Shown: piece after piece, positions 9,345-25,128 of the stretch | Layout: the number at the start of each line of letters is the position of its first letter | How positions within the stretch are numbered: the stretch's first letter is position 1 | Assembly: GCF_005405925.1 (NCBI RefSeq) | Contig: NZ_BJHV01000001.1 | Coordinates: forward strand, 5,828,001-5,892,000 | Length of the DNA stretch: 64,000 nt | Direction: 5' to 3' | Source: Streptomyces antimycoticus | Lineage (GTDB): Bacteria; Actinomycetota; Actinomycetes; Streptomycetales; Streptomycetaceae | Program-made: the position numbers and the translations under genes | Notes under the pieces: model-generated | The model's input: only the letters and a program-made list of their open reading frames with translations | Told to the model about the DNA's origin: nothing | The model's database searches: none

Positions 9345-9679
9345 CGTTCTCGATCCTGGCACGACGGGACGGTTTGCGGGTGCGCTGGGCGCGGGCGTTC
9401 GGGTCGAGCCGCGCCAGTCGTTGCCAAATCGTGCAATACGGGCGTCCGTGCGGGAACGGATGGCCGCTTGCCGCGCCCGGGTGCGGTATCCCTGCCCCTC
9501 AGGGTGGCCGCAGGGCGACTCGGGGGCGTCCGGGGGGGTGTCTTGGGGCGACTCGTGGCGGCCTGGTGGCGGACTTATGGCGGTCTCATGTGCGGGATCC
9601 GGTCGGATCATGAGAAAAGAAGGGAACGGGGCGGGGGTTATTGGCCGGTAGAGCTCCCGATCTCTCGTAGAGTTTCCGC
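9345..9679. promoter_or_regulatory. mutY / membrane-protein divergent spacer, possible leaderless promoter
   Basis: A 335-bp spacer between divergent genes. TAGAGT at 9668-9673 lies 6 nt before the GTG at 9680, which has no ribosome site. This is the geometry of a leaderless transcript. A matching -35 is weak. The rest is G-rich sequence with no gene that I can support. Confidence 0.4.
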
Positions 9680-10533
9680 GTGGGATCTCTGCGCAATCCG
9701 ATCGGGCCGCTTCCCTCCTCCATTTACTGGCGGCGGAGGATCGTTGGGCTGGCCCTGCTCGTCGTCATCGTGCTCCTGGTCATCTGGGCCTTCGGCTGGG
9801 GTGGTTCGGGCGGTGGCGGAAGTGACGAGGGCAAGGGATCGGGCGGCGGGGGCCCCGCGAGCACGATCACCCCGGGGCCCTCCTCATCCGGGCCGGTGAA
9901 CAGCGAACGGCCGGGCGGGCGCGACGAGTCGGACAACGGCGGCTCGGGCTCCGGCGACTCCGGCGGCAGCGGTGGCGGTTCGGACGACGGCGGGACCGGC
10001 GCGAGCGGCGGTGGCGCGGGCGGCGGCAGCGGCTCCGGCGGCTCCTCGGGTGGTGGCGCGGGTGGCGGTGGCATCGGCACCGGGACCGGACCGGGTCTGC
10101 CCGCCGGGTCGAGCCTGCCGGACTGCCGCCCCGGTGACGCGGAGTTGACGGTGCGCAGCGTCAAGGACTCCAAGGTCAAGAACACCTGGGCGCCGGGGAG
10201 AAGCCCACCTTCGAGATCGTTGTGAAGAACACCAAGTCGAGCTCCTGCAAGGTCGACTTCGGCCGGTCGGCGGCCTCGCTGACCATCACGGACGCCAAGA
10301 ACGCCCACATCTGGGCCTCCGGCGACTGCCCGGAGGGCAGCGCCAGCGCGCTGGTCGAGGTGGAGGGCTCCGGCGAGACCAAGCGCACCGTGGAGTGGGA
10401 CCGCAAGCGCAGCGCCGAGCACTGCGCCACCCCGTCGGGCAGCGCGTCGGCCAAGCCCGGCACCTATCTGGTCGAGGTGAAGGTGGACGGCCTCGGCACG
10501 GCCAAGGTGTCGTTCGTCCTCGAGAAGGACTGA
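9680..10533 (+). CDS. Single-span membrane protein with Gly/Ser linker (sequence frameshift)
   Basis: Two reading frames form one gene. Part one has a short cytoplasmic start, one TM (~20-42, IVGLALLVVIVLLVIWAFGW), a ~110-residue Gly/Ser-rich linker and the start of a folded domain (LPDCRPGDAELTVRSVKDSK). Part two continues from ~10196 with VVKNTKSSSCKVDFGRSAAS and ends FVLEKD. One G is missing from the run at 10195-10198 (GGGG where five restore the frame), probably a sequencing error. The outer domain has several Cys that could form disulfides and an Ig-like beta pattern. Function unknown; conserved next to mutY in streptomycetes as far as I recall. Confidence 0.75.
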
Positions 10534-14310: not shown

Positions 14311-14318
14311 TGCGGCAC
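14300..14318 (-). repeat. Right terminal inverted repeat of the IS630-bounded element
   Basis: ACGTTGCCTGATGCGGCAC, the perfect complement of the left end. It is followed by TA (14319-14320), which is also the TA of the disA stop codon TAG on the minus strand. Confidence 0.9.
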
Positions 14319-15424
14319 TAGACGTACCGCTCCAGGATGGACGACTCGGCCAGCCGTGACAGGCCCTCGCGGACCGAGCGCGCCCGGGCCTCGCCCACGC
14401 CGTCGACCATCTGCAGATCGTCCACGCTCGCCGCCAACAGCTTCTGCAGGCCCCCGAAATGCTCCACCAGCCGCTCGATGATGGCGCCCGGAAGCCGCGG
14501 CACCTTGGCCAGCAGCCGGAAACCGCGCGGCGAGACCGCCGAGTCGAGGGTCTCGGGCGAGCCGGTGTACCCCAGCGCCCGGGCCACGATGGGCAGTTCG
14601 AGCAGCTCGGTGTGGGTCAGCCGGTCCAGCTCGGCGAGCGCGTCGGCCACCGTACGGGTGCGCTTGGCGGTCGGCTCGGGGACGTAGTCACGCACCACCA
14701 GCTCACGCTCGGGCTCCACGCCCGCGATCAGCTCGTCCAGCTGGAGGGAGAGCAGCCGGCCGTCCGTGCCCAGCTCGACCACGTACTCCGCGATCTCGGT
14801 GGCGATGCGGCGGACCATCTCCAGCCGCTGTGCGACCGCGCTCACATCCCGGACGGTGACCAGGTCCTCGATCTCCAGGGCCGAGAGCGTGCCCGCGACC
14901 TCGTCGAGGCGGAGCTTGTACCGCTCCAGGGTGGCCAGCGCCTGGTTGGCACGGGAGAGGATCGCCGCCGAGTCCTCCAGGACCCGCCGCTGGCCGTCCA
15001 CATACAGCGCGATCAGCCGCATCGACTGGCTGACGGAGACCACCGGGAACCCGGTCTGGATGGAGACGCGCTGCGCGGTGCGGTGCCGGGTGCCGGTCTC
15101 CTCGGTGGCGATCGCCGCGTCCGGAACCAGCTGCACCCCCGCCCGCACGATCTTGGTGATGTCCTTGTCGAGGACCAGCGCGCCGTCCAGCTTGCACAGC
15201 TCGCGCAGCCGGGTCGCGGTGAACTCGACGTCGATCACGAAGCCGCCGGTGCACAGCGACTCGACGGTCTTGTCGGTGCCGAGCACGATCAGCCCGCCGG
15301 TGTTTCCCCGGAGGACGCGCTCGAGGCCGTCGCGCAACGCCGTGCCGGGCGCGACCGCGCTCAGGGAGGCACGCATCAGACCGTCGGCCTTGCCGGGTGC
15401 CGTTGCCCGGTCGCCTGCTGCCAC
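14318..15424 (-). CDS. disA: DNA integrity scanning protein / diadenylate cyclase DisA
   Basis: A 368-residue enzyme making cyclic di-AMP from two ATP. The N-terminal DAC domain carries DGA (residues 80-82) and RHR (113-115), the two catalytic motifs. A helical linker follows, then a C-terminal HhH DNA-binding domain ([15 protein letters not shown]) that senses branched DNA. I chose the GTG at 15424 because GGAGG sits 8 nt upstream. The TAG stop uses the TA target of the IS-bounded element plus the first base of its inverted repeat. radA lies upstream on the same strand, as in other actinobacteria. Confidence 0.96.
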
Positions 15425-15688
15425 TGCACTCCTCCGTCGCAAGGTCTGTCGGTGCCGCCAGTCGCCCTGCCATGCCGGTGTGCGAGGCCACGTATGGGCG
15501 AGACCAGGGCAAAGTCTACCGGCGGCCACCGGCCTCCCGTGGGGTCTCCCGGCGTACGCCCGTAGGTGTGAAACGGAGTGCTGCTCCCCCTGTGCCGCGC
15601 ACCACCCGGTTCACGGCCCCCTTGCGTACGCCCTCACCAGCACACACCGCGCCCACGGCCCGTCACCTTTGCCGCGGTCCTCCGCGTC

Positions 15689-17113
15689 TCAGCCGCGGTC
15701 CTCCGCGTCCGCCCGCGCCTTTTCGCCCCGCTCCCGGCGCCGCGGCAGCACCCGCAGCGCGTCCCCGATGTCCGCCACCTCCAGCACCCGCATTCCGTCC
15801 GGGATCCGGCCCGGGTCGGTCGGCACCAGGGCGTGGGTGAAGCCGAGCCGGGCCGCCTCCGCCAGCCGCCGCTGCACTCCGGTGACCCGCCGGACCTCGC
15901 CCGCGAGACCCACCTCGCCGATCGCCACCAGGTTCTTGGGCAGCGGGGTGTCACTGGCGGCGCTGGCCAGCGCGAGCGCCACGGCGAGGTCGGCGGCCGG
16001 CTCGGACAGCTTCACCCCGCCCACCGTGGCGCTGTAGATATCCCGCTTGCCCAGCGCGCTGATCCGGCCGCGCTGCTCCAGAACGGCCAGCATCATCGAG
16101 ACCCGGGAGGTCTCCAGACCGGAGGTGGTGCGGCGCGGGGAGGGGATCTGGGAGTCGACGGTGAGCGCCTGCACCTCGGCCACCAGCGGCCGGCGGCCCT
16201 CCAGGGTGACCGTCAGACACGTGCCGGGCACCGGCTCGTCGCGGCGGGTGAGGAACAGCCCGGAGGGGTCGGCGAGCCCGGTGATGCCCTCGTCGTGCAG
16301 CTCGAAGCAGCCGACCTCGTCCGTCGCCCCGTAGCGGTTCTTCACCCCGCGGACCAGCCGCAGCCGGGCGTGCCGGTCGCCCTCGAACTGCAGGACGACA
16401 TCGACCAGATGCTCCAGCAGCCGGGGACCCGCGATGGCGCCGTCCTTGGTGACGTGGCCCACCAGCAGCGTGGACATACCGCGCTCCTTGGACGCGCGGA
16501 TGAGCGCCCCGGCCACTTCGCGCACCTGCGCCATCCCGCCCGGCGCGCCGTCGATCTCGGGCGAGGCGACGGTCTGCACCGAGTCCAGGACGAGCAGCGA
16601 GGGCTTGACCGAGTCGAGATGGCCGAGGACCGCGGAGAGGTCGGTCTCGGCGGCGAGATAGAGATGCTCGCTCAGCGCGCCGATGCGGTCGGCGCGCAGC
16701 CGCACCTGACTCGCCGACTCCTCACCGGTGATGTAGAGCGTGCGGTGCTCCTCGGAGGCGGCCTTGGCCGCCACGTCCAACAGCAGCGTGGACTTGCCGA
16801 CCCCGGGCTCCCCGGCGAGCAGCACGACCGCGCCCGGGACCAGCCCGCCGCCGAGCACCCGGTCCAGCTCGTCCACGCCCGTGCCCCGCGCGGTGGCCTG
16901 ACGGCCGTCGACCTGGCCGATGGGCAGGGCGGCCGAGGTGACCCGGCCGGGCGCGGTGGTGCGCACCGCGGGCGTGCCGTACTCCTCGACCGTGCCCCAC
17001 GCCTGGCACTCGGGGCAGCGGCCGAGCCACTTGGCGGTGGTCCAGCCGCACTCCGTACAGCGGTAGGAGGGGCGGTCCTTGGCGGATGAACGGGAGGAGC
17101 TACGGGCAGCCAT
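15689..17113 (-). CDS. radA: DNA repair protein RadA
   Basis: A 474-residue recombination protein. N-terminal zinc finger CTECG...CPECQ (residues ~19-36), RecA-like ATPase with Walker A GEPGVGKST (~103-111), the RadA-specific KNRYG motif, and a C-terminal Lon-type domain (GVKLSEPAADLAVALALASA). RadA is a helicase that extends heteroduplex during recombination and branch processing. It lies upstream of disA, whose activity RadA is reported to restrain in other bacteria. The ATG at 17113 has no ribosome site but a TAGCGT box 6 nt upstream, suggesting a leaderless message. Confidence 0.96.
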   Translation of the reverse strand: MAARSSSRSSAKDRPSYRCTECGWTTAKWLGRCPECQAWGTVEEYGTPAVRTTAPGRVTSAALPIGQVDGRQATARGTGVDELDRVLGGGLVPGAVVLLAGEPGVGKSTLLLDVAAKAASEEHRTLYITGEESASQVRLRADRIGALSEHLYLAAETDLSAVLGHLDSVKPSLLVLDSVQTVASPEIDGAPGGMAQVREVAGALIRASKERGMSTLLVGHVTKDGAIAGPRLLEHLVDVVLQFEGDRHARLRLVRGVKNRYGATDEVGCFELHDEGITGLADPSGLFLTRRDEPVPGTCLTVTLEGRRPLVAEVQALTVDSQIPSPRRTTSGLETSRVSMMLAVLEQRGRISALGKRDIYSATVGGVKLSEPAADLAVALALASAASDTPLPKNLVAIGEVGLAGEVRRVTGVQRRLAEAARLGFTHALVPTDPGRIPDGMRVLEVADIGDALRVLPRRRERGEKARADAEDRG

Positions 17114-17439
17114 GCCGTAACGCTAGCGTCGGCCACCGACAGAGCCGAACGGCGGCGGTGAAGGGCCCTTCACGGGCCCCCTTATCGGCCCCTTCCCCGG
17201 CCCCGCGCCGGCCCTTCCCCCGGCCCCGCGCCGGCCCTTCCCCGGCCCCCGCGCCGGCCCTTCCCCGGCCCCCGCACCGGCCCCTCGTCAGCGTTGCCGG
17301 AGGGCGCCGGGCGCATAGCAGGTTACGGCCACCGGAGGGGGACACCTGTCCCCTTATGAGGGAGATGGTCACCCGTAAGGGTTAAAACAGTGCAAGTGGC
17401 GCGAGGAAGTCTGCATCATCCGCCTACCGTCGCCGGGTG
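17114..17439. other. radA / sigma-BACON divergent spacer with 23-bp tandem repeats
   Basis: A 326-bp gap. At 17186-17287 there are ~4.4 tandem copies of a 23-bp unit (start CGGCCCTTCCCCGGCCCCGC), almost pure G+C. Further right, TACCGT at 17424-17429 lies 7 nt before a GTG and 10 nt before the ATG of the next gene, another possible leaderless start. There is no coding sequence I can support. Confidence 0.6.
17120..17149 (-). promoter_or_regulatory. Candidate leaderless promoter of radA
   Basis: On the minus strand, TTCGGC (17149-17144), an 18-bp spacer, TAGCGT (17125-17120), then 6 nt to the ATG. The same -35/spacer combination precedes the sugar isomerase gene at 21577-21606. Confidence 0.5.
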
Positions 17440-19151
17440 ATGAGCAGCAGGTCCGAGCACTCGACACAGACCACCGGCGCACAGCGGGTGCGGCGCCGTG
17501 CGCCCCGCTCCACGACCACCCGCCCCCAGCGCCCGCCCGAACGCTATGAGCCGTATCTCGACGGCCTGTTCACCTACTGCCTGTCGGCGCTGTGCGAGCA
17601 CGACGCGGCCGCCGTCGCGGTGGGCGATGTGCTGGCGGTGGCCGAGCGCCGCCCCGGCCGGGGGCGGGGCCGGGTCACCGCGGAGGGCGAGCTGTCCCGC
17701 CCCTGGCTCTACGCGGTCGCCCGCTGGGCCTGTCTGCGCAAGCTGGCCGAGCGCCGCGGCCGTACGGGGACGGACACCCCGGGCGACGACGCCGGGGCCG
17801 AGCTGCCCGAGCCCATCGCCGCCCAGCGCCGTCGCGAACTGGCCGCGCTGGCCTGGCCGGAGGCCGCCGGGACCACCGCCGAGCAGCGCGAGGCGCTCGA
17901 GCTCGCGGTGCGCCATCGGCTGGGCCCCTCCGAGGTGGCGGCCGTGCTCGGCAAGGACCAGGAGGAGACCCGCGCCCTGCTCTCCAGCGCCGCCTGCGAG
18001 GTGGAGCGCACGCGTGCCGCCCTCGCCGTCGTCGAGCTGGGCCACTGCCCGGTCGTCGCGCGGCTCGCGGGCGACACCCAAGTGCTGCTCTCCGCGGCCC
18101 TTCGCCGCGAGCTGGTGCGCCATGTGGACGACTGCCGCGAGTGCCGCCGGATGGCCGAGCGCGCCACGGCCGACGGACCCTGGCCCGGTACGGCGGCCGC
18201 GCCCGCCGCGCTGCCAGTGGTGGAGGCCCCCCGCGCCGCCGTGCACGCCGCGCTGCTGAGCGCGCTCAGCGGACGCCCCGCCCGCGCGGGCGCCGGGCCG
18301 CGGTTCGACCGGCGCGGCTTCCCGCTGGAGCCCCAGGACCGGGCCGCCCGCCGCAGCCGGATGCGCAGCCGGGCGCTGACGACGACGGTGGTGGCGACGG
18401 TCGTCGCGGCCCCGGTGCTGGCGCTGTGGGCCGCCTACCGGGGCGCCCCGCTCGCCGGTGACGAGCGCGATACGGACTCGGTGGCCGTCGCCGAGGCGGA
18501 CGGCACGGACCAGGCCCCGGCCGGTCAGGACCGGCCCGCCCGTCGCTCGTACGAGCGCGGCGGCAGCGCGCAGGACCGTTCCGGCACCCAGATCGGCTCC
18601 GGACCGCGGAGCGCCAAGGGGGCCGCGGGGCGTCGGATGTGTCGGTCGAGGTCATCGGCGTGGACGGCGCGGTGGAGCGGCCGGGGCACAAGGGCGGCGA
18701 AGCGTCCCGCCCGGATGGCTCTCCGGCCGGCGGCGGCCGCCCCGGCGACGGCTCAGGACCGTCCCGACCGGCCCCCGGCCCGGGGCGGCTCACGGTCACG
18801 GCACACCCCGAGGGCGAGGTGACGGTCATCACCCTCACCGCCTCCGGCGGCTCACCGGTGCACTGGTCGGCCTCCGCCGGGGCGTCCTGGCTCCAGCTGA
18901 ACCACACGGGCGGGGTGCTGCGGCCCGGCGACTCCACGACCATCACGGTCTCGGTGGACCACGGCCGGGAGCCGGCCGGTCACTGGAGCGCACGGGTCTC
19001 GGTGGACCCGGCGGGCGCGGTGGTGCTGATCGAGGGCCGCGGCGCCTCCCCCGAGCCCACCCCCACCCCCACCGGCCCCTCCGGCAACCCGACCCCAACC
19101 CCGACCGACCCGTCCCCCACCCCCTCCGGCCCGGCCGCCGCGAGGCGCTGA
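17440..19151 (+). CDS. Sigma-like / zinc anti-sigma / TM / BACON fusion protein (sequence frameshift)
   Basis: About 570 residues once a missing G at 18627-18630 is restored. Residues ~35-105 resemble a degenerate sigma region 2 (LSRPWLYAVARWACLRKLAE). Residues ~130-195 resemble region 4 (EQREALELAVRHRLGPSEVA). Residues 228-235 give H-X3-C-X2-C (HVDDCREC), the zinc anti-sigma motif. One TM follows (~312-332). After a long charged linker comes an extracytoplasmic BACON-like beta domain (HWSASAGASWLQLNHTGGVL) and a Pro/Thr tail. This would be a sigma and anti-sigma pair with a sensor in one chain. Whether the sigma part can bind RNA polymerase is unknown. Confidence 0.75.
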
Positions 19152-19314
19152 CACAAAACCCGGCCACATCAACCGACGACGGCCCCGGAGGCGTCGACCG
19201 GCGGGCCGGCCAGGTCGACTGACGGCCGCGGACGTGCCGAGCGGCGGACCGGTCACCTGGACCGGCGGCTCCGGACACGGCAACTGGTGGGCCGGATCGG
19301 CCGGATCGCCCGCG

Positions 19315-20169
19315 TCAGCCCGCCGGATCCGCCGGATGCGGAGCCACCAGCGGCAGCGACGACGCCAGGCGCTGCTCGCACAGCTCGGCCAGCCGGTCGT
19401 ATCCGGCCTTGCCCATCAGCTCCGTGAGCTCCGGCCGGTACGACCGGAACACCGGCTCCCCGGCCCCGTGCGCCGACGTGGCCGACGTGCACCACCAGTG
19501 CAGATCGTGGCCGCCCGGCCCCCAGCCGCGCCGGTCGTACTCGGCGATGGTGACCCGCAGCACCCGGGTGTCGTCCGGCCGGTCGATCCAGTCGTAGGAC
19601 CGGCGCACCGGCAGCTGCCAGCACACGTCCGGCTTGGTCTCCAGCGGCTCGCGCCCCTCCCGCAGCGCCAGGATGTGCAGGGCGCAGCCCGCGCCGCCCG
19701 CGAAGCCCGGCCGGTTCTGGAAGATGCACGAGCCCTTGTGGCGCCGGGTCTGCCGCTCGCCGTCGTCGTCCTCCTGCACCCACCCCGAGGCGTGCCCCAC
19801 ATCGTGGAACTGCCAGATCTCGGGGGTCAGCCGAGCCATATGGCGGCCGACCCGCTCCTCGTCCTCCTCGTCGGAGAAGTGCGCGCCCAGCGTGCAGCAG
19901 CCATCGCTGGCCCGCCCCGCCTGGATGCCCTGGCAGCCCTGGCCGAAGATGCAGGTCCACCGGGAGGTCAGCCAAGTCAGATCGCATCGGAAGAACTGCT
20001 CGTCGTCGGCCGGATCGGGGAATTCGACCCATGCGCGGGCGAAGTCCAGACCGACCTCGTCCTCGGCGGCCCCGGCATCCTCGGCCCCGGACGGCATCGG
20101 CGCCTCGGCCGCCCACTCCAGGTCGGTCTTCCGGCCTTTGTCCTGCTTCGCCTTTTTCGTCTTTGCCAC
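19315..20169 (-). CDS. Conserved cysteine-rich protein (metal-cluster type)
   Basis: A 284-residue soluble protein with no signal peptide or TM. It has a Cys set at 62, 73, 79, 91, 92, 148, 162, 183, 227 and 264, plus many His and Trp. The [20 protein letters not shown] segment and later KGSC and AGC motifs suggest Fe-S or zinc binding, similar in style to YkgJ/DUF3109 proteins, which is a tentative comparison. The GTG at 20169 is followed by a basic start ([13 protein letters not shown]). It lies between the sigma-BACON gene (convergent) and the Ppx-type gene (divergent). Function unknown. Confidence 0.75.
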
Positions 20170-20350
20170 GGTGCAAGGGTAGGCCCCTCGGCCAAAAGCC
20201 GGAGGTGGGGACCGCGCACGGCCCGGCGGCGCGGCGCGGGCCCGGGATCGGCCGCCGATCGGCGACCGATCTGCCGCCCGGGCGCGCGATCGCATGCGAT
20301 CGGTGGGGGACCTGTGCATGACACTGAGGGGGAGCAGTAGCGTTCACGCC

Positions 20351-21279
20351 ATGAGACTCGGTGTCCTCGACGTGGGTTCGAATACGGTTCATCTGCTTGT
20401 GATGGACGCCCACCCCGGCGCGCGCCCGCTGCCCGCGCACTCGCACAAGGCCGAGCTGCGGCTGGCCGAACTCCTCGACGGCGCCGGGGCCATAGGCCCC
20501 GAAGGCGTCGACCGCCTGATCGCGGTGGTCAAGGAGGCGCTGGAGGCGGCCGAGGACAAGGGCGTCGAGGACGTCCTGCCGTTCGCGACCTCCGCCGTCC
20601 GCGAGGCGTCCAACGCCGATGAGGTCCTGGCCCGGGTCACCGAGGCGACTGGCGTGCGGCTCCAAGTGCTCAGCGGCGCGGACGAGGCGCGGCTCACCTT
20701 TCTGGCCGCCCGCCGCTGGTTCGGCTGGTCCGCGGGGAAGCTGCTGGTCCTGGACATCGGCGGCGGTTCGCTGGAGATCGCGTACGGCATGGACGAGGAG
20801 CCCGACGCGGCGGTCTCGCTGCCGTTGGGGCCGGCCGGCTGACCGGTTCGTGGCTGCTCGGCGACCCGCCCGACCCGGCGGAGGTACGGGCCCTGCGGCG
20901 CCATGTGCGGGCCGAGATCGCCCGAAACGTCGGCGATTTCAGCCGTCATGGGGCGCCGGACCATGTGGTGGCCACCTCCAAGACGTTCAAGCAGCTGGCC
21001 AGGATCACCGGCGCCGCGCGCTCCGCCGAGGGGCCGTACGTGGAGCGCCGCCTCACCCGCCGGGCGCTGGCGGAATGGGTGCCGAAACTGGCTGCCATGA
21101 CCACCGAGGAACGGGCCGATCTGCCCGGCGTCTCCGAGGGCCGGGCCGGACAGCTTCCGGCCGGGGCGCTGGTGGCGGAGGCCGCGCTGGATCTGTTCAG
21201 CGTGGAGCAGCTGGAGATCTGCCCGTGGGCGCTGCGCGAGGGCGTCATCCTGCGCCGCCTGGACCACCTGCCAACGTGA
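20351..21279 (+). CDS. Ppx/GppA-type exopolyphosphatase family protein (sequence frameshift)
   Basis: Two frames form a ~309-residue protein of the ASKHA fold. The N-terminal phosphate loop is [15 protein letters not shown], followed by [15 protein letters not shown] and the second phosphate loop [15 protein letters not shown]. The second part resumes with [20 protein letters not shown] and runs to the end. One G is missing from the run at 20827-20830 (TTGGGG before CCGG), which truncates the first frame at PAG. The family hydrolyses polyphosphate or pppGpp, while short actinobacterial forms act on linear polyP. The ATG at 20351 has no good ribosome site. Confidence 0.88.
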
Positions 21280-21613: not shown

Positions 21614-22459
21614 GTGACAGAGCCAGTGGTGCGCATCCCGGATGCGAAGGTCGCGCTGTCCACAGCCTCGGTCTATCCGGAGTCGACGGCGACGGCCTTC
21701 GAGATCGCGGCACGCCTGGGCTACGACGGCGTCGAGGTCATGGTGTGGACCGATCCGGTCAGCCAGGACATCGAGGCGCTGCGTCGGCTCTCGGACTACC
21801 ACCAGGTGCCGATCCTCGCTGTACATGCTCCCTGTCTGCTGATCACCCAGCGGGTCTGGTCGACCGACCCCTGGGTCAAGCTGCAGCGGGCGAGAGCGGC
21901 GGCCGAGAAGCTCGACGCGTCCACCGTCGTGGTCCACCCGCCGTTTCGATGGCAGCGGTCCTACGCCCGCGAGTTCGTCAGCGGAGTCTGGCGGATGGCC
22001 GATGAGACCGATGTGCGGTTCGCGGTCGAGAACATGTACCCGTGGCGCTATCGCGATCGAGAGATGCTCGCGTACGCCCCGGACTGGGACGTCACCCAGC
22101 ACGACTACCGCCACTTCACGATCGATCTGTCGCACACCGCCACCGCCCGTACGGACGCGATGGAGATGGTGGACCGCATGGGCGACCGGCTGGCCCATCT
22201 CCACCTCGCCGACGGCCAGGGCTCCAACAAGGACGAGCATCTGGTGCCGGGGCGCGGCACCCAGCCCTGTGCCGAACTGCTGGAACGGCTCGCGGCCACC
22301 GGCTTCGACGGCAATGTGGTCGTCGAGGTCAACACCCGGCGGGCCATGTCCACCGCCGAGCGCGAGGCCGACTTGGCGGAGGCCCTGGCCTTCACCCGGC
22401 TGCATCTCGCCTCGCCGACCTCGGCCAATCCGCCCAGCAGGGTGGTGCCCGGGTCGTGA
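21614..22459 (+). CDS. Sugar phosphate isomerase/epimerase (xylose isomerase-like TIM barrel)
   Basis: A 281-residue protein of the AP-endonuclease-2 / xylose-isomerase TIM-barrel superfamily. Visible are the first strand ([20 protein letters not shown]), [10 protein letters not shown], the metal-site regions [23 protein letters not shown] (Asp and His) and HLHLADGQG, and VVVEVNTRR near the end. The GTG at 21614 is chosen because similarity to the family starts there. Its stop overlaps the GTG of the TetR gene by 4 bp (GTGA), so the two form an operon. The substrate is unknown. Confidence 0.85.
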
Positions 22460-23084
22460 CCCCCGCCTCATCCGGGCCCGCCACGGGCCCGCGCAAGCGT
22501 GGCCGCCCGGCCCGTACGAGCGCCTCCGACGGCCCCGGCGCCCGCGACCGGATCCTGGCCGCGGCGCGCAACGAGTTCGCCGAGCGCGGCTACGACAAGA
22601 CCTCGATCCGCGGCATCGCCAAGGCCGCGGAGGTGGACCCGGCGCTGGTCCACCACTACTTCGGCACCAAGGAGCAGGTCTTCGAGGCGGCCATCGAGCT
22701 GATCTTCGCGCCCGCCATGGCCGCCCCGGACGCGGTGCACGGCAGCCGGGAGGGCGCGGGCGAGCGGATGGCCCGCTTCATGTTCGGCATCTGGGAGAAC
22801 CCGGTCAGCCGGCTGCCGCTGCTCGCCGTGATGCGCTCGGCGCTGACCAACGAGACCGCCGCCGTGGTGCTGCGCGGCATGATCGAGCGCCGGGTGCTGC
22901 TGCGGATGGCGGGTGAGCTGGACGTCCCGAACCCGAGTTCCGGGCCCAGCTCGCGGCCGGGCACCTGATCGGGATCGCGATGCTGCGCTATGTGATCCGG
23001 ATGGAGCCGATGGCCTCGGCGGAGGTCGATGACATCGTGGCCATGGTGGGGCCCACCCTGCAGCGCTATCTGACCGAGAGCTGA
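22456..23084 (+). CDS. TetR-family regulator (sequence frameshift)
   Basis: A ~209-residue regulator. After a basic Pro/Arg-rich start, the helix-turn-helix is [20 protein letters not shown] with [17 protein letters not shown]. The ligand domain runs through [18 protein letters not shown] and resumes after a frame break as [20 protein letters not shown], ending QRYLTES. One C is missing at 22932-22934 (AACCCGAG where four C restore the frame), so the gene is probably intact in the organism. It is coupled by a 4-bp overlap to the isomerase gene. It could control that operon or ilvD; targets are unknown. Confidence 0.85.
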
Positions 23085-23278: not shown

Positions 23279-25128
23279 GTGCCCGAGCTGAGGTCTCGCA
23301 CCGTCACCCATGGCCGCAACATGGCGGGCGCCCGCGCCCTTATGCAGGCGTCCGGCGTAGCGCGCGAGGACTTCGGCAAGCCGATCATCGCCGTGGCCAA
23401 CAGCTTCACCGAGTTCGTGCCCGGTCACACCCACCTCCAGCCGGTCGGCCGGATCGTTAGTGAGGCGATCCACGCGGCGGGTGGCATTCCGCGCGAGTTC
23501 AACACGATCGCGGTGGACGACGGCATCGCCATGGGCCACGGCGGGATGCTCTACAGCCTCCCCTCCCGCGACCTGATCGCCGACTCCGTGGAGTACATGG
23601 TCGAGGCGCACTGCGCCGACGCGCTGATCTGCATCTCCAACTGCGACAAGATCACGCCCGGGATGCTGATGGCCGCGATGCGGCTCAACATCCCGACCGT
23701 CTTCGTCTCCGGCGGCCCCATGGAGGCGGGCCGGGCCACGCTCGTCGACGGCACCGTCCGCAAGCTGGACCTGATCAACGCGATCTCGGACGCGGTCAAC
23801 GAGAACGTCTCGGACGAGGACATCCTCCGTATCGAGAACAACGCCTGCCCGACCTGCGGCTCCTGTTCCGGCATGTTCACCGCCAACTCGATGAACTGCC
23901 TGACCGAGGCGATCGGCCTCTCCCTGCCGGGCAACGGCTCGGTGCTGGCCACCCACACCGCCCGCCGGGCGCTCTACGAGACCGCCGGCCGTACGGTCGT
24001 GGACATCACCAAGCGCCACTACGAGCAGGACGACGAGACCGTTCTGCCGCGCTCCATCGGCACCCGCGCCGCCTTCGACAACGCCATGGCGCTCGACATC
24101 GCCATGGGCGGCTCGACCAACACGATCCTGCATCTGCTGGCCGCCGCCCAGGAGGCCGGTCTCGACTACGACCTCAACGACATCAACGAGGTCTCGCGCC
24201 GAGTGCCCTGCCTGGCCAAGGTCGCGCCGAACGTGGCCCCGGCGGCACGTACTACATGGAGGACGTGCACCGCGCGGGTGGCATCCCGGCGATCCTCGGC
24301 GAGCTGTTCCGCGCCGGGCTGCTGAACGAGGACGTCCACTCCGTGCACAGCTCCTCGCTCGCCGACTGGCTCAAGACCTGGGACGTGCGCGGCGGTTCAC
24401 CGTCCGCCGAGGCCGTCGAGCTGTGGCACGCGGCCCCCGGCTGCAAGCGCTCCGCCACCGCCTTCTCGCAGTCCGAGCGCTGGGACACGCTGGACACGGA
24501 CGCCGCCGGCGGCTGCATCCGCGACCTGGAGCACGCCTACTCCAAGGACGGCGGGCTCGCCGTCCTCAAGGGCAATCTGGCCGTCGACGGCTGTGTGGTG
24601 AAGACCGCGGGCGTGGACGAGTCGATCTGGACCTTCGAGGGCCCCGCCGTGGTCTGCGAATCCCAGGAGGAGGCCGTCGAGCGGATCCTGGGCAAGCAGG
24701 TCAAGGAGGGCGACGTGGTCGTCATCCGCTACGAGGGCCCCAAGGGCGGCCCCGGTATGCAGGAGATGCTCTACCCCACCTCCTTCCTCAAGGGCCGGGG
24801 CCTGGGCAAGGCCTGCGCGCTGGTCACCGACGGCCGCTTCTCCGGCGGCACCTCGGGCCTGTCCATCGGCCACGCCTCGCCCGAGGCGGCGTCCGGCGGC
24901 ACCATCGCCCTGGTCCAGGACGGCGACCGGATCCGCATCGACATCCCCGGCCGCACCATCGAACTCCTGGTGAGCGAGGAGGAGTTGGCGGCCCGGCGCG
25001 AGGCGCTCGGCGGCGTCTACGCCCCGAAGAACCGCGAGCGCAAGGTGTCCACCGCCCTGCGCGCCTACGCGGCGATGGCCACCAGCGCCGACAAGGGCGC
25101 GGTCCGCGACGTCAGCCGTCTCGGCTGA
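23279..25128 (+). CDS. ilvD: Dihydroxy-acid dehydratase IlvD (sequence frameshift)
   Basis: An enzyme of about 616 residues for valine/isoleucine synthesis. It dehydrates dihydroxy-isovalerate and dihydroxy-methylvalerate. The GTG at 23279 has GAGGGAG 8 nt upstream. The Fe-S and active-site signatures are [11 protein letters not shown] and [20 protein letters not shown], with the late [15 protein letters not shown] motif. The frame breaks where one C is missing at 24237-24240 (GGCCCCGG, expected GGCCCCCGG); the second frame resumes as [20 protein letters not shown]. Both halves are full length, so this is an error, not decay. Its 3' end overlaps the convergent kinase gene by 17 bp. Confidence 0.95.

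Follow-up and report, generated by a model that had tools for sequence, protein, structure and literature searches.

The gene studied here appears to encode a membrane-anchored relative of sigma factors whose sigma-like part seems, in Streptomyces, to have lost its usual polymerase and promoter contacts. It lies at positions 17440-19151 (plus strand) of a 64,000-nucleotide stretch of Streptomyces antimycoticus DNA (assembly GCF_005405925.1, contig NZ_BJHV01000001.1, positions 5,828,001 to 5,892,000), hereafter called the window. The protein is interpreted as representing, in Streptomyces, a branch of an actinobacterial family whose members are one-chain extracytoplasmic function (ECF) sigma factors; in this branch the sigma part may now belong to a membrane pseudo-sigma/anti-sigma regulator. 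This interpretation is given about an even chance and is favoured over that of a working sigma switch. The one-chain architecture and the idea of proteolytic release have already been published for ECF52 (PMC5826349, PMC8999054). The new observations, drawn from sequence comparison, are that the contact residues are replaced in Streptomyces mostly by fixed substitutes and that the zinc domain is nearly frozen.

The N-terminal part contains a sigma region 2-like part (residues 34-110; 17539-17769, plus strand) with eroded contacts and a sigma region 4-like part (residues 124-200; 17809-18039, plus strand) whose recognition-helix region has lost its positive charge. Both were identified by profile and predicted fold. 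The sigma profile reached a probability of 97.4, against at most 2.5 in 30 column-shuffled controls and 0.6 in a reversed control. Sequence homology of this part to sigma factors is thus far above chance and points to shared ancestry with sigma regions 2 and 4, the regions named in the first-pass annotation. The predicted fold agrees, with structural matches that took in PhyR and isolated region-4 domains; since helical models can reach such Z values without kinship, this agreement depends on the profile search for its weight. Neither Sigma70_r2 nor Sigma70_r4_2 of Pfam was listed for the window protein at E 5, so that both remained short of their cut-offs, and the NCBIfam model sigma70-ECF gave 17.2 bits, below its cut-off of 42.9. 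Among 37 listed members searched at E 0.5, Sigma70_r2 was found in 4 (best 0.009) and Sigma70_r4_2 in 23 (best 0.002). This set, like the set of 114 homologues used below, was drawn from the best 120 of 2846 matches and thus favours close kin.

Residues were compared between 35 Streptomyces rows and 39 related one-chain ECFs. The sites in region 2.2 are taken by us to be polymerase contacts and those in region 4.2 DNA contacts. The region 2.2 aspartate (D59), present in all 39 one-chain ECFs, was found in none of the 35 Streptomyces rows (one has E). Three replacements were fixed in Streptomyces (35/35) and absent from the one-chain ECFs (0/39), namely G62 in place of H or Q, A185 in place of R and E187 in place of Q; accordingly, R185 occurs in 0/35 Streptomyces rows. 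W96 likewise replaces N in 35/35, N being present in 36 of the 39 one-chain ECFs. Among the listed Streptomyces homologues, G62, W96, A185 and E187 were seen in 114/114 and D59 in none (E in 3). The region-4 helix (residues 171-194) carries a net charge of -0.6 in Streptomyces versus +2.3 in the one-chain ECFs. Twelve ordinary ECFs of the same genome have D (10) or E (2) at the aspartate site, and R at the region 4 arginine in 8. The conserved polymerase- and DNA-contact residues expected of an ECF are therefore missing from the aligned Streptomyces sequences, which agrees with the earlier description of the sigma regions as degenerate. The same annotation had spoken of a transcription switch. 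Its domain reading stood, but the sense of a promoter-binding sigma was weakened because the region 2.2 aspartate is gone and the positive charge of region 4 is lost. The next acidic site (63), however, is retained in 35/35 Streptomyces rows, as are W89 and Y91.

The zinc anti-sigma-like domain (residues 201-245; 18040-18174, plus strand) is the most constrained part of the protein. Its ligand set C203, H228, C232 and C235 was unchanged in 75/75 aligned rows, and the predicted model places helices at 219-231 and 233-244. The motif H-X3-C-X2-C, noticed earlier at residues 228-235, is the signature of class I zinc anti-sigma factors according to excerpts of PMC7406223, and it is spread here across two helices, as in that class. 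The zf-HC2 family (PF13490) gave 9.8 bits for the window protein, under its cut-off of 22.2, and matched 21 of the 37 listed members at E 0.5. A single membrane helix at about residues 312-332 (18373-18435, plus strand), with arginines just ahead, was recognised from the sequence as the annotation had predicted, and the modelled helix 298-333 covers it.

Selection was estimated as dN/dS by the NG86 method from 36 pairs of 9 genomes; the values are rough because of the small number of genomes and the short stretches. They were 0.012 for the zinc domain, 0.24 for sigma 2, 0.32 for sigma 4, 0.35 for BACON, 0.56 for the outer linker and 0.59 for the tail. No interpretation is placed on the values of the 13-residue inner linker (2.1) and the N-tail (0.72). 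As far as these estimates go, the protein is under constraint, the zinc domain most of all, and the sigma contacts have been replaced mostly by new fixed residues.

Outside the membrane, a Pro/Ser/Thr linker precedes an Ig-like domain that is followed by a Pro/Thr tail. The outside domain had been called BACON-like, and the profile search bore this out: BACON_2 (PF19190) was detected at 18783-19016 (plus strand) with 30.8 bits against a cut-off of 25. It is the sole match in the genome at E 0.001, and PF19190 matched 37/37 listed members at E 0.5. Carbohydrate binding by BACON is a family prediction, and excerpts of PMC9853417, citing others, mention one assayed BACON that bound none of the substrates tried. 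Sensing of wall glycan by the outside domain, as suggested by the annotation, may be envisaged.

A working model can be proposed from these parts. The family layout runs from sigma 2 and sigma 4 through the zinc anti-sigma domain, the membrane helix and the Pro/Ser/Thr linker to the outside Ig-like domain. In Streptomyces, the sigma part would most likely have ceased to act as an ordinary promoter-binding sigma and become a cytoplasmic pseudo-sigma, bound at the membrane by its own zinc domain. Encounter of the outside domain with a ligand could then rearrange the pseudo-sigma/zinc-domain pair or lead to its cleavage, after which one of the two parts might bind a cytoplasmic partner, be it another sigma, an anti-sigma or the polymerase. 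More tentatively, and with a clearly lower probability than the general model, the ECF sigma encoded beside disA and radA would have turned, on the Streptomyces stem, into a membrane pseudo-sigma that its own anti-sigma domain has as a built-in gate or substrate, the zinc domain acting in trans on another sigma when the outside domain is occupied. If the protein is a pseudo-sigma, Streptomyces would have a membrane receptor, and any inventory of sigma factors that includes it (possibly that of one S. venezuelae paper) would be too long. The trans-acting zinc domain, if true, would make a sigma factor the regulator of its own anti-sigma.

The given sequence does not hold the protein in one piece. 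The first-pass annotation took 17440-19151 for a single protein; the span is 1712 nt long, which is not divisible by three, and it contains two frames. The first frame (17440-18822, plus strand; 460 aa) encodes the sigma-like, zinc and membrane parts; its initial 393 codons or so align with intact homologues and the remainder is out of frame. The second (18639-19151, plus strand; 170 aa counted from the first GTG) encodes the outside part. Relative to intact relatives the break lies at 18610-18630 (plus strand), and third-position GC shows a change of coding frame near 18.6 kb. An extra base was present at the break site in 9/9 near relatives aligned (L001-L007, L013, L017). Translation from the match start at 18 loci reached a stop in 16, after 564-689 codons in 15 of them and after 762 codons in L012, which reads on beyond the usual end; L002 and L014 run off their contigs. 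The near relatives encode the sigma-like, zinc, membrane and BACON parts as one chain.

Window frames were split by one-base losses at five places, near 10.2, 18.62, 20.83, 22.93 and 24.24 kb, all at or beside a run of G or C, and the long frames concerned are intact in relatives. The four besides the gene described here (9671-10530, 20330-21276, 22237-23081 and 23279-24459) lie within about 14 kb. One of the split frames is a Ppx-GppA gene; another looks like ilvD. One-base gaps occurred at 12 window places in total, of which these five were looked at, some of the other seven being insertions. Because four other long frames nearby are split in the same way, the break in 17440-19151 is probably a consensus error rather than a real mutation. 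Programmed frameshifting was set aside, since the relatives are intact and neighbouring frames show similar one-base losses.

Several other explanations were weighed against the pseudo-sigma. The most serious is that the protein remains a functional ECF sigma with unusual specificity, which its fused zinc domain keeps inactive until cleavage or rearrangement frees it; this is the proposal made for ECF52. The layout shared with ECF52 (PMC5826349), the preserved predicted fold, the purifying selection on sigma 2 and sigma 4, and the occurrence of a full ECF near radA in the relative from genome G058 all speak for it. The replacement of region 2.2 and region 4 residues, mostly by fixed substitutes, and the scarcity of Sigma70_r2 (4/37 listed members at E 0.5, with r4_2 in 23) speak against it, and this explanation is regarded as a substantial but lesser possibility.

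A real frameshift in this strain, which would leave just the membrane-anchored sigma/zinc portion to be made and no BACON, is improbable. The two frames of the given sequence would fit, as would the listed homologue P0036 (474 aa), which also stops within the linker. Opposed to this are the one-base losses in the four neighbouring frames, including Ppx-GppA, and the presence of the gene in 34 of 36 other genomes of the genus searched, including two that have it only in part. Still less probable is a surface protein with a mainly structural or adhesive function, in which the sigma-like part would take no part in regulation. A BACON-type domain and a Pro/Thr tail outside the cell, and the PASTA annotation of 6 of 120 listed one-chain relatives, could be read in this way, but it is the cytoplasmic zinc domain that is most constrained, the outer linker and tail being only weakly so.

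Among known systems, ECF52 is the closest in layout. Excerpts of PMC5826349 and PMC8999054 describe SCO4117 of S. coelicolor as combining an ECF sigma, a zinc finger, a transmembrane segment, a Pro-rich part and a carbohydrate-type module in one chain, for which proteolytic release was proposed. The layout is alike in the intact relatives of the present protein, whereas the window frame is broken. The module of ECF52/SCO4117 is given there as smart00776 (NPCBM in the S. venezuelae listing) and is BACON_2 here; a further difference is that an ECF domain is recognised in SCO4117, whose deletion gives a phenotype. In S. clavuligerus, a stop separates the sigma part from the sugar-binding part, and the authors suspect a sequence error (PMC5826349). 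A look for an ECF52 copy in the genome studied here gave two NPCBM matches, neither of them at any of the genome's sigma-2 matches. The S. venezuelae table in the excerpt of PMC11256431 lists RS15920 ('r4, BACON') and RS19240 ('r2, r4, NPCBM') as separate sigma genes, and reports RS15920 as 'up' in three ECF deletion mutants. RS15920 and the present protein probably belong to the same gene family.

The actinobacterial one-chain ECFs (P0121, P0206, P0231, P0159) have the same order of parts, share the zinc ligands in 39/39 rows, and some of them are annotated with BACON_2 or PASTA. The listed ones retain Sigma70_r2, and most retain region 4, with a basic region-4 helix, from which the Streptomyces branch differs. 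The sigma-like domain of PhyR is an anti-anti-sigma; the predicted fold is shared with it, but the present protein has no receiver domain, is anchored in the membrane and carries its own fused zinc domain. The SigW/RsiW zinc anti-sigma complex consists of two proteins, here joined in one chain. The S. coelicolor locus may be SCO3349. Searches of the literature on BACON with sigma terms and on SCO3349 returned no study of the protein, only the table entry, yet it is widespread in the genus and lies near disA and radA.

Homologues were detected in 51 of the 61 genomes searched. Within Streptomyces the gene occurs in 35/37 genomes, including the one studied, with G017 and G028 having it only in part; beyond the genus, homologues were found in 1/1 and 14/14 genomes of two other families of the order and in 1/9 elsewhere in the class. 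In a tree of 48 rows, rooted at the midpoint and with ordinary ECFs on long branches, the Streptomyces clade (100/100) is nested within the one-chain ECFs. It lies close to the order's BACON copies, the fork joining them having a support of only 95/69. The Streptomyces stem measures 1.41 changes per column and the tips 0.08-0.26.

The neighbourhood is conserved as well. A gene at 15689-17113 (minus strand; Pfam ATPase/AAA_25/ChlI/Lon_C), taken by recognition to be radA, is divergent from the sigma-like gene in the window, and disA, of the c-di-AMP synthase family (DAC, DisA-linker), lies at 14318-15529 (minus strand). A radA homologue was found at 35 of the 36 loci whose flanks are long. L063 alone yielded none, and it is an additional copy: its genome carries others next to radA (L064). 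The minus-strand gene at 19315-20319, for which Pfam gave nothing at E 0.001, has a homologue at 32 of these 36 loci. The relative of genome G058 (L055) passed the Pfam cut-offs for both Sigma70_r2 (42.4 bits) and r4_2 (29.8 bits). Its neighbours include disA and radA; a single gene intervenes and, in contrast to the window, the relative and radA share a strand. With this full ECF in the same neighbourhood, a change from sigma to pseudo-sigma would be directly testable by swapping parts.

L055 is identical to P0121, labelled at NCBI as a protein of a Sporichthyaceae MAG. A search with P0121 gave 1300 proteins at E 0.001, and 6 of the 120 listed were annotated with PASTA and 2 with BACON_2. The PASTA annotation lies outside the membrane in P0152, P0159, P0161, P0162, P0165 and P0170, and such one-chain ECFs could possibly be peptidoglycan-sensing sigma receptors.

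In one other family of the order, 13 of 14 genomes have an adjacent pair of matches at the radA locus; adjacent paralogues were seen at L053, L056-L062 and L064-L067. Three of these pairs were scanned (L053, L061, L064): in each, BACON_2 passes the cut-off in one member, which has a long spacer, and its partner has a weak Sigma70_r2 match and a Ser/Thr-rich tail without BACON. In the non-BACON copy of L053, the region-4 helix is acidic and the zinc motif is altered.

Upstream of the gene, an ECF-type promoter of the form GGAA-N19-CGTC turned up in 12 of the 52 upstream stretches, the window's own and those of 11 close relatives; being absent from the other 40, it is not claimed. Rfam gave no match across 17080-19400. 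A conserved 39-base element is located at 17348-17386 (plus strand), between radA and the gene and 54-92 bases ahead of the start codon. Of 51 Streptomyces loci, 45 carry it with at most 3 mismatches. There are 4-6 mismatches in L029, L038 and L040 and 14 in L019, and the sequences of L021 and L045 do not contain the stretch. A same-genus locus outside the 51 (L068) has 9 mismatches, and the element was found in none of 15 loci of other families (L053-L067; at least 12 mismatches). The idea of a regulon was dropped, the genome holding a single copy within 3 mismatches. The element may serve the sigma-like gene or radA.
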